A stretch of 64,000 nucleotides of DNA from Anaeromyxobacter diazotrophicus (GTDB lineage Bacteria > Myxococcota > Myxococcia > Myxococcales > Anaeromyxobacteraceae): positions 434,001-498,000 of the forward strand of contig NZ_BJTG01000004.1 in assembly GCF_013340205.1 (NCBI RefSeq). Reading direction: 5' to 3'. Position numbers and translations under genes: made by a program. Each line of letters begins with the position of its first letter. Within the stretch, counting starts at the first letter, position 1. Positions 16,234-20,653 of the stretch are shown piece by piece. The notes under the pieces are model-generated. The model saw only the letters and a program-made list of their open reading frames with translations, did no database searches and was not told the origin of the DNA.

Positions 16234-16959
16234 ATGGGCCTCGTCGACCTTCACTGCCACCTGCTCTGGGACCTCGACGACGGCTGCCGCACGGCCGAGG
16301 AGACGCTGGAGGCGGCCCGCGCGCTCTCGGCCGTCGGCTACGCCGAGATCGCGGCCACGCCGCACGTCCAGGCGCGCTACAGCGGCGGCGACGAGCGGCT
16401 CGTGGCGGCGCGGCTGGCCGAGGCGCGCGCGCTGCTGCTCCGGGAGGGGGTCGAGATCGCGCTTCACGGCGGGGGCGAGAACGTGCTCGACGAGGCATAC
16501 CTGGAGCGCGCCGGCCGGGGCGAGGGGCGCCCGCTCGGCGGTCACCCGCGCTGGGCGCTGGTCGAGGTGCCGTTCCAGGCCGACGTCCCGGACCTGGCGG
16601 CGCTCGTGGCCCGCGCCCTCGCCACGGGGACGGCGCCCATCCTGGCGCACCCGGAGCGCTGCGTCGCCTTCATGCAGCCCGGGCGCGCGGCGGAGGTGGT
16701 CCGGCTCGGCGGGGCGCTGCAGCTCAACCTGGGCGCCCTGACCGGGCGCCACGGCCGCGTGGCGCAGGCGTTCGCCGAGCGGTTCCTGGGCGAGGGCCTC
16801 TACGCCGTGGCGGGCACCGACCTGCACGCGCCGGAGGCCGCCGACGAGTGGGTGGGCGAGGCGCTCGAGGCGCTCGCGGTCCGCGCCGGCGCGCGCGAGC
16901 TGCGGCGGTTGTGCGAACTGAACCCGCGGCGGGTGCTGGCGGGCGAGGAGCTCACATGA
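16234..16959 (+). CDS. CpsB/YwqE-like PHP-domain phosphatase
   Basis: A 241-residue metal-dependent hydrolase. The PHP ligand motifs are DLHCHLLWDLDDG at the N-terminus, ATPHV near residue 47, AHPERC near 145 and GTDLHAP near 191. This set matches the CpsB/Wzb-like tyrosine phosphatases that dephosphorylate polysaccharide-export kinases. No kinase gene is adjacent, so the substrate is unproven. Its stop overlaps the ATG of the following membrane protein, which suggests a joint envelope role. Confidence 0.85.
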   Translation: MGLVDLHCHLLWDLDDGCRTAEETLEAARALSAVGYAEIAATPHVQARYSGGDERLVAARLAEARALLLREGVEIALHGGGENVLDEAYLERAGRGEGRPLGGHPRWALVEVPFQADVPDLAALVARALATGTAPILAHPERCVAFMQPGRAAEVVRLGGALQLNLGALTGRHGRVAQAFAERFLGEGLYAVAGTDLHAPEAADEWVGEALEALAVRAGARELRRLCELNPRRVLAGEELT

Positions 16960-18026
16960 AGCGACTCCTGCAGACGCTGGGCGGGCTGGCCATCTCGGCG
17001 GCCGCGCTGGGGCTCACGCTCCGCGGCAAGCACCTCGACCGGATCTGGGCCGAGATGCTGCACGCCGACTACCGCTGGCTCTGGCCGTACCTCGCCATCC
17101 TCCTGCTCATCCACCTCGTCCGGACGGTGCGCTGGGGCATCCTGCTCGAGCCGGTCGCGAAGGTGCCGTTCTCGAAGCTCAACGCGACCGCGGCGGTCGG
17201 CTTCATGGCGCTCGTGATCCTGCCGTTCCGGCTGGGCGAGTTCGCGCGGCCCTACCTGGTGGCGGAGCGGCCGCGCATCCGCGTCTCGGCGGCGCTCTCC
17301 TCGGTGGTGGTGGAGCGGGTGGCGGACGGCCTCTTCACCGCCGCCCTGCTCGTGCTGACGCTCCTGGCGGTGCCCGAGGGCACCCCCGGCCTGCACGCCT
17401 TCCGCCTGGCGGGGGTGGTGGTCTTCGGTGCCTTCGGGGCGCTGCTCGCGTTCCTCGTCCTCGCCTACCGGAACCGCCCGCGCGCGGTGCGGCTCACCCA
17501 CCGCCTCATCGACCCGGTGTCGCCGCGCGCGGCGGAGCGCGTCTCGGGGATGATGGACGCCTTCATCCACGGGCTCAGGCTCGTGCCGTCGCGCCGGAAG
17601 GTGGCGCTCTTCTTCCTGCTCACGTTCGTCTACTGGGCGGTGAACGGCTGGGGCATCCAGCTCTTCGCGCGGAGCTTCGGCTTCGACCTGCGCCTGCTCG
17701 ACGCCTACACCGTGCTGGGGGTGCTGGTGGTCGGCATCATGATCCCGGCCGGCCCGGGCATGGTGGGGACGTTCCAGGCGGCGGTGGCGGGCGGGCTGTC
17801 GCTCTTCGCCCCCGGAGCGGGTGAGCGCGCCTTCGCCTTCGCGAACGTGCTGTGGCTCGTGCAGCTCGCGCAGCAGGTGGCGCTGGGGGTGGCCTTCCTC
17901 TTCTCGCGCCACATCCAGCTCGCGCGCATCCTGCAGGCGCCGCGCGAGGTCGAGGACGAGCTCGAGGCGGAGGAGGGCGACTACCAGCGGGAGGAGGACG
18001 CCCGGACGTCGCGCGCCGCGCCCTAG
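16956..18026 (+). CDS. Flippase-like membrane protein (LPG synthase TM-region family, UPF0104)
   Basis: A 356-residue polytopic protein with about eight hydrophobic helices. Family landmarks are RWGILLEPV, the LPFRLGEFARPYLVAER segment near residue 90, and PAGPGMVGTFQAAVAGG near residue 265. This family comprises the membrane half of MprF and stand-alone relatives thought to move lipid-linked molecules. There is no aminoacyl-transferase domain. The C-terminus is highly acidic. ATG 16956 overlaps the PHP-phosphatase stop. Confidence 0.88.
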   Translation: MKRLLQTLGGLAISAAALGLTLRGKHLDRIWAEMLHADYRWLWPYLAILLLIHLVRTVRWGILLEPVAKVPFSKLNATAAVGFMALVILPFRLGEFARPYLVAERPRIRVSAALSSVVVERVADGLFTAALLVLTLLAVPEGTPGLHAFRLAGVVVFGAFGALLAFLVLAYRNRPRAVRLTHRLIDPVSPRAAERVSGMMDAFIHGLRLVPSRRKVALFFLLTFVYWAVNGWGIQLFARSFGFDLRLLDAYTVLGVLVVGIMIPAGPGMVGTFQAAVAGGLSLFAPGAGERAFAFANVLWLVQLAQQVALGVAFLFSRHIQLARILQAPREVEDELEAEEGDYQREEDARTSRAAP

Positions 18027-18031
18027 GTGCG

Positions 18032-18187
18032 CTAGGCGGCCTCGCGCTCGGCGGCGGCGCGCGCCGCCTCGTCGAGCGCCGGCTGCACCTCGCCCAGGAA
18101 CCAGGCGTCGAGCAGCTCGTCCAGCTCCTTCACCAGGTCGTCGAGCTCGAGCTCGTCGGTGAGGTCGGGGATCGCGGGCGTCGTCAT
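18032..18187 (-). CDS. Very small acidic protein, second of a coupled pair
   Basis: A 51-residue acidic protein (DLTDELELDDLVKELDELLDAWF, then an Ala/Glu-rich helix); most residues could form one amphipathic helix. Its ATG shares a base with the TGA of the upstream small gene (TGATG), and GAGGAGG lies just before it inside that gene. This tight coupling and the good ribosome site argue for real expression. No family is recognised. An antitoxin-like or antagonist protein wrapping its basic-tailed partner is one idea, not shown. Confidence 0.6.
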   Translation of the reverse strand: MTTPAIPDLTDELELDDLVKELDELLDAWFLGEVQPALDEAARAAAEREAA

Positions 18188-18372
18188 CACAGCTCCTCCT
18201 CGAACCACCGCCGGAGCGCCTCGCGGATGCGGCGCGACGCGGGGTTCAGGACGTGCGGCGTGGGGCGGGGCAGCTCGGCGTGGTCCTGGAGGGGCAGCTC
18301 CCGCGGCGTGAACTCCGCGGTGCGCGTCGAGACCGACGGCCTCGATTGCTCGGCGACCTGCGTGCCACCCAT
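18187..18372 (-). CDS. Small protein, first of a coupled pair under a palindromic operator
   Basis: A 61-residue protein: polar, Pro-rich N-terminal two-thirds and a charged C-terminal helix (ASRRIREALRRWFEEEL). AGGAGG stands six bases before ATG 18372. A sigma-70-like promoter and a 22-bp palindrome lie directly upstream, so expression is probably repressed until an inducer or condition appears. It overlaps the second small gene by one base. No known domain is recognised, and no modifying enzymes sit nearby that would support a peptide natural product. Confidence 0.62.
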   Translation of the reverse strand: MGGTQVAEQSRPSVSTRTAEFTPRELPLQDHAELPRPTPHVLNPASRRIREALRRWFEEEL

Positions 18373-18388
18373 CCCGCCACCCTCCTGC

Positions 18389-18410
18389 CCGATATCGCGT
18401 GCGATATCGG
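18389..18410. promoter_or_regulatory. 22-bp palindromic operator
   Basis: Perfect 10-bp arms CCGATATCGC and GCGATATCGG around GT. It covers the expected transcription start of the two small genes, as a repressor site would. It is one of the most A/T-rich and most symmetrical elements in the window. The cognate regulator is not obvious among neighbours. Confidence 0.7.
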
Positions 18411-18414
18411 AGCC

Positions 18415-18442
18415 GGTGTAGCACGGGTCCCTGACGCGTCAA
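18415..18442 (-). promoter_or_regulatory. Promoter of the small-gene pair
   Basis: On the minus strand TTGACG (18442-18437) is followed 16 bases later by TACACC (18420-18415). The start point would fall at about 18408, inside the palindrome. The -35 matches consensus well and the -10 moderately. Confidence 0.55.
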
Positions 18443-18563
18443 GAAATCGGCCGGCCGCCCTCGCCGCCGGGGCGGGGCGAGGGCGGCCGGGAAGAGGCCG
18501 GGGCTGGCGCCGGCGGTCAGCGCCGCGCCGGGCTTCACTCGGCGGACGCCAGGCGCCGCGCGC

Positions 18564-20576: not shown

Positions 20577-20653
20577 TGGTGGTGAGGGGGAGAATCGAAC
20601 TCCCGACCTAGGGATTATGAGACCCTCGCTCTAGCCGACTGAGCTACCTCACC
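20577..20653 (-). tRNA. tRNA-Met (anticodon CAT)
   Basis: Minus-strand cloverleaf with acceptor stem GGTGAGG/CCTCACC, D arm GCTC...GAGC, anticodon loop CTCATAA, T arm GGGAG-TTCGATT-CTCCC and an encoded CCA (20577-20579). The anticodon stem has a U-U at its last pair. CAT could also mark tRNA-Ile2, but the acceptor stem lacks the C4-G69/C5-G68 pairs recognised by TilS, and it is not initiator-like. Elongator Met is preferred. Confidence 0.85.

Follow-up and report, generated by a model that had tools for sequence, protein, structure and literature searches.

Two tiny overlapping genes, P1 and P2, on the minus strand of the DNA analyzed here (the window, 64,000 nucleotides of Anaeromyxobacter diazotrophicus) constitute, as judged from comparisons of sequences, a real and vertically inherited operon of soil myxobacteria. 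P1 represents an apparently undescribed conserved family of myxobacterial microproteins, found in two families with a different partner in each; searches of the literature returned no description of either the P1–P2 pair or the operon of P1 with a ribbon-helix-helix (RHH) protein presented below. We regard as evenly balanced the chances that P1–P2 is a regulatory microprotein operon repressed through the box CGATATCG, with P2 binding the helix of P1.

The P1 and P2 genes and their products

The features of the locus, in window coordinates, are the following:

16956–18026, plus strand: convergent LPG_synthase_TM (flippase-like) membrane gene (Pfam PF03706, E 2e-40), outside the operon
18032–18187, minus strand: P2, open reading frame of 51 amino acids, ATG start at 18187, TAG stop
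18187–18372, minus strand: P1, open reading frame of 61 amino acids, ATG start at 18372, TGA stop
18193–18199, minus strand: P2 Shine–Dalgarno GGAGGAG, 5 nt 5′ of the ATG, within the coding end of P1
18380–18386, minus strand: P1 Shine–Dalgarno AGGAGGG, 7 nt 5′ of the ATG, read from the sequence
18389–18410, no strand: perfect palindrome CCGATATCGC-GT-GCGATATCGG (10 + 2 + 10), with two CGATATCG boxes 12 bp apart
18415–18420, minus strand: −10 element TACACC, with TAC at a fixed distance from TTG in 9/9 loci
18437–18442, minus strand: −35 element TTGACG, with TTG kept in 9/9 P1 leaders
18451–18490, minus strand: hairpin with perfect 15-bp arms, an inverted repeat that separates the P1 promoter from the SDR gene upstream

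Both the stop of P1 and the start of P2 use the A at 18187 (TGATG), an overlap of one base. The original description of 61- and 51-codon genes with one base in common, each with a strong ribosome site, is thereby confirmed. In the window, GC3 is 0.97 for P1 and 1.00 for P2. Between pairs of close species, dN/dS ranges from 0.04 to 0.25 for P1 and from 0.04 to 0.62 for P2; for P2 of the window against Anaeromyxobacter, it exceeds 1 near saturation, and the divergence is fast. Measured by these ratios, selection on P1 is stronger than on P2. With low dN/dS and GC3 near 1, both genes therefore behave as translated genes under selection. DNA of 75% G+C contains many short frames, and either gene could in principle be no more than a frame open by chance, or encode a leader peptide only; with low dN/dS, amino acids conserved between families, GC3 near 1, and the start/stop overlap retained, such an origin is highly improbable. 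Conservation of both frames in relatives, which had been proposed as a check, is indeed observed at the amino-acid level.

Homologs of P1 and P2 occur, with their order kept, in all eight near-complete Anaeromyxobacter genomes (the named species being A. oryzae, A. terrae, A. soli, and A. oryzisoli). The Anaeromyxobacter genome without the pair is 66% complete. In G001, a genome of the same genus, P1, P2, and also the flippase-like gene are missing, and the absence of the pair there is probably a gap.

In P1, a conserved STRTxEFxPRELPL motif is followed by a Pro-rich linker and a C-terminal helix, RIREALRRWFEEEL. The alignment of the family (A3) retains a TRT..P..L motif and a C-terminal I(K/R)(D/E)A(L/I)xRW(L/F)xxE(L/M). 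P1 as a whole is about neutral (pI 6.7), with a C-terminal amphipathic helix of mixed charge; the "basic-amphipathic end" described originally is thus borne out only in part. The other product was said to be very acidic, and P2 is so (charge about −12.5, pI 4.1). AF2 models, made from five sequences and for single chains, show P1 as mostly disordered with a confident C-terminal helix (44–60) and P2 as one long helix (15–50). Searches of Pfam and NCBIfam (E up to 10) and of PADLOC (E up to 1) placed neither protein in a family, and the other libraries gave nothing significant for either. A weak PHROG match of P2 to the tail of a "DNA binding protein" (E 0.0014) was set aside, as acidic helices yield such matches.

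Promoter, palindrome, and the CGATATCG box

In the window, 16 bp separate the −35 and −10 elements. The nine P1 leaders share the pattern TTGnnn-N16-TACnnn, with 22 bases from TTG to TAC in every case and between 52 and 70 from TTG to the ATG. The constancy of the first distance and the variability of the second therefore support a real promoter. The hexamers and spacing of the TTGACG/TACACC promoter, as first proposed, are thus conserved in relatives, although a consensus sigma-70 scan at a strict threshold does not call it.

The palindrome lies over the predicted start point, as had been claimed for a perfect 10+10-bp element. Its 18-base core has no second match with up to two mismatches in its own 4.83-Mb genome; the whole palindrome is the sole match in the window at up to three mismatches, with none in 100 shuffles. 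The 64 kb contain 14 perfect 10+10 inverted repeats (some of them nested) versus 4.5 in simulations; the palindrome of the P1 leader is the only one of them with at least eight A/T bases. A+T content and position over the predicted start point distinguish it, not its perfection.

In the leaders of Anaeromyxobacter (8/8), a single CGATATCG box occurs 11–12 bases 5′ of the ATG and is fused to the ribosome site, as CGATATCGGAGGA. Since the relatives have one box and the window two, the conserved element is the 8-bp CGATATCG and the long palindrome a local doubling. Conservation of the palindrome in relatives, proposed as another check, is therefore borne out for the half-box and not for the full element. 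A doubled CGATATCG resembling that of the window, with the boxes 15 bp apart, occurs also in A. oryzae (L275:701-723, or G022:C1:3948741-3948763).

The hairpin at 18451–18490 is probably the end of the upstream SDR transcript; a strict terminator scan does not call it. A search with Rfam found nothing besides the tRNA. A tRNA-Met(CAT) gene is present upstream of the operon (window 20577–20653). Near-identical tRNA genes are found at the P1–P2 locus in A. oryzae and, in genera without P1 and P2, directly behind the flippase-like gene.

Distribution of P1 and P2 and the exchange of partners

Profiles of P1 built from alignments A1 and A3 were searched against 195 genomes of the phylum (E ≤ 0.001). 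They match 58 of them: 47 Myxococcaceae, 9 Anaeromyxobacteraceae, and 2 weak others. P1 is present in one copy per genome, in most Myxococcaceae at the same chromosomal spot, and the LPG_synthase_TM gene adjoins it in 36/38 loci of both families. With P1 and the convergent gene at one place in two families, common descent is the simplest reading. No copies of P1 were found in collections of plasmids and phages.

In the Myxococcaceae, P1 lies at or beside the stop of a gene for an RHH_3-domain protein (Pfam E 2e-19) in all 30 loci read. P1 is thus older than the P1–P2 pair, because in that family it is translationally coupled, as second gene, behind the RHH protein instead. A TTGAC promoter-like stretch precedes the RHH–P1 operon in the 21 Myxococcaceae loci with upstream DNA read (L115–L135), and these contain a conserved inverted repeat of the type ACAGGC-N8-GCCTGT, before the ribosome site and some 300 bases 5′ of the P1 start. 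P2 is confined to three genera of the family (g1, g2, and g4). In the sister genus g2, a P2-like gene occurs alone at the place of P1–P2, with a similar promoter; in genera g3, g5, and g6, the flippase-like gene is present and both P1 and P2 are absent.

These observations bear on the toxin–antitoxin system suggested originally. The locus does have the overlapping small genes and the operator over the promoter of type II systems. RHH-antitoxin type II operons (RelBE, VapBC, ParDE) likewise combine small overlapping genes with an operator that is palindromic and placed at the start point; in the RHH–P1 operon of Myxococcaceae, the first gene also encodes an RHH protein. Unlike them, P1–P2 has neither toxin family nor mobility, its synteny is fixed, and its partners are separable. 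No known toxin or antitoxin family was matched by P1 or P2 in Pfam, NCBIfam, or PADLOC. Pairing is not obligate, with P1 occurring without P2 in Myxococcaceae and P2 without P1 in g2. The distribution is not that of a mobile, patchy, or multi-copy element (single copy, 36/38 with the same neighbor, none on plasmids or phages). Fixed synteny, the lack of plasmid or phage copies, and the exchange of partners thus argue against a mobile toxin–antitoxin system, and in its original form that interpretation finds no support in a single-copy, vertical locus without family match and with each gene found without the other.

A fixed module of toxin–antitoxin type, in which the toxin P1 is neutralized by the RHH protein in Myxococcaceae or by P2 in Anaeromyxobacteraceae with exchange of the antitoxin, would agree with the overlapping genes, the tiny proteins, the palindromic operator over the start point, and the acidity of P2, as well as with weak RelB/VapB-like antitoxin matches of the RHH partner (below the cut-off). 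We consider such a module unlikely: P1 has no toxin fold or family and is mostly disordered in the AF2 model, it is single-copy with synteny fixed in two families and no plasmid or phage copies, and P2 persists without it. An anti-repressor or stress-peptide role, also envisaged originally, is possible for P1, coupled as it is to an RHH DNA-binding protein in Myxococcaceae.

RHH proteins, a proposed mechanism, and wider CGATATCG sites

The DNA sites of RHH proteins are short palindromes or direct repeats (PMC7156744). P1 could itself belong to these DNA-binding proteins as a diverged member and autoregulate the operon through CGATATCG, with P2 an acidic DNA-mimic antagonist, and the C-terminal RIKDALLRWLEEE does resemble the second helix of RHH proteins, next to whose gene P1 lies in Myxococcaceae. 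This is very doubtful, however, because a profile comparison with hhalign aligns 14 columns with a probability of 0.3%; the AF2 model has neither the strand nor the first helix, although it was made from five sequences and as a monomer, whereas RHH strands form in dimers. Pfam gives no RHH match for P1. The assignment of P1 to the RHH (MetJ/Arc/CopG) proteins was set aside, a look-alike helix being its sole support against a negative profile comparison; P2 was rejected as an RHH protein or as a relative of P1 on negative comparisons.

Among the systems that come close are the small RHH proteins CdbA/CdbB of Myxococcus xanthus, or MXAN_4361/4362 (PMC7156744). Like the RHH partner of P1, these are encoded in a small operon, and their DNA sites are direct repeats (PMC7156744); profiles of P1 and P2, by contrast, do not place them with the RHH proteins. 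The identification of the RHH partner as CdbA or CdbB was not adopted, since it has no sequence match in the PDB despite the published crystal structure of CdbA. No second RHH gene is present in the RHH–P1 operons read.

A second RHH_3 protein of the family, whose own promoter has a conserved GTATCGGGTGGTAGCG direct repeat, might instead control P1–P2. Its promoter is conserved in 22 genomes, and with the matrix derived from it, the P1 leader scores second among 127,966 window positions, while in two of three g2 genomes the P2 promoter comes first. In the Anaeromyxobacter leaders tested, however, there is no clear gain over column-shuffled matrices (0.08–0.62), and the operator matrix of Myxococcaceae has no match to the window; we therefore hold this control to be improbable. 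Two narrower proposals were rejected: that CGATATCG serves the second RHH gene as its operator (the boxes nearby are Asp–Ile codons), and that the RHH-promoter matrix accounts for the box (it fits the window and, of three g2 genomes, two, and is unconvincing for the Anaeromyxobacter leaders). The promoter of the second RHH_3 gene, GGTATCGGGTGGTAGCGTGTAGG (L159–L180), is in itself very strongly conserved in the genomes of the family that were read (22/22). It contains direct repeats of 6 bp at a distance of 10 bp, a pattern that looks like autoregulation by the RHH protein.

In the regulatory microprotein operon that we favor, a DNA-binding protein that recognizes CGATATCG would control the single promoter (TTGnnn-16-TACnnn). 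With the box at the start point and the ribosome site, the bound protein would block initiation; its release would allow the coupled output of P1 and P2 through the stop–start overlap. P1 would act as a small adaptor, its disordered N-terminal motif contacting a third partner and its C-terminal amphipathic helix packing against the acidic P2 helix or, in Myxococcaceae, against the RHH protein. P2 would then hold or titrate P1, and the RHH protein of Myxococcaceae would combine the roles of repressor and partner. Sequence itself establishes the genes, the selection on them, their synteny, the conservation of promoter and box, and the exchange of partners; repression, contact between P1 and P2, and the adaptor role are what we infer. 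In size, predicted order, conserved short motifs, and coupled expression, P1 and P2 are like the general class of regulatory microproteins with a disordered tail and one helix; in sequence, they are related to no named family.

The box CGATATCG occurs 20–38 times per genome of 4.8–6.7 Mb (dinucleotide expectation, 0.35 per 64 kb). The counts about equal the dinucleotide prediction, and abundance was rejected as evidence for a regulon. Anaeromyxobacter G004 has 34 sites, and at 13 loci besides P1–P2 the box is aligned with one in G022. About four of these 13 are within genes; others are intergenic, some inside a TTGACC-17-TA promoter. Shared sites are thus partly codons, and several are in core promoters. 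TTGAC occurs within 30 bases of the box in 8/68 cases versus 2% at random places of the same loci; as orthologous pairs are among the eight, about five cases are independent. The promoter-associated shared boxes are at:

G004, L234, L236, L238, L239, L245, L246: near position 700 (1029 in L239)
G022, L262, L261, L292, L288, L283, L282: near position 700

Neighbors of shared boxes include genes for a UvrD-type helicase, a class II ribonucleotide reductase, an N6/N4 DNA methylase, and a Clp_N protein, and further PrmA, DUF507, an M48 peptidase, and a HATPase_c protein. In L292 (690–720), upstream of the UvrD-type helicase gene, the box is lengthened into a palindrome that is perfect over 18 bp, GCAGGCGATATCGCCTGC, and lies between TTGACC and TAG elements. 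The shared boxes possibly mark a stress regulon; with CGATATCG not over-abundant and some shared sites being codons, the regulon is a lead only. A broader picture, in which P1 is a core myxobacterial adaptor with exchanged partner (RHH repressor versus P2) and the operon is part of a CGATATCG regulon that extends to genes for the maintenance of DNA and proteins (UvrD-type helicase, class II ribonucleotide reductase, DNA methylase, Clp_N, M48 peptidase, HATPase_c), is doubtful and is put forward tentatively.

With P1, an apparently undescribed and vertically conserved microprotein family joins a well-studied bacterial group. The locus also illustrates that a layout of toxin–antitoxin type need not mean a toxin–antitoxin system. 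For those working on Myxococcus, the testable gene is the small one behind the RHH protein, facing the flippase-like gene. The box CGATATCG, with sites common to two species, is a candidate promoter element and may provide a handle for finding the regulator.
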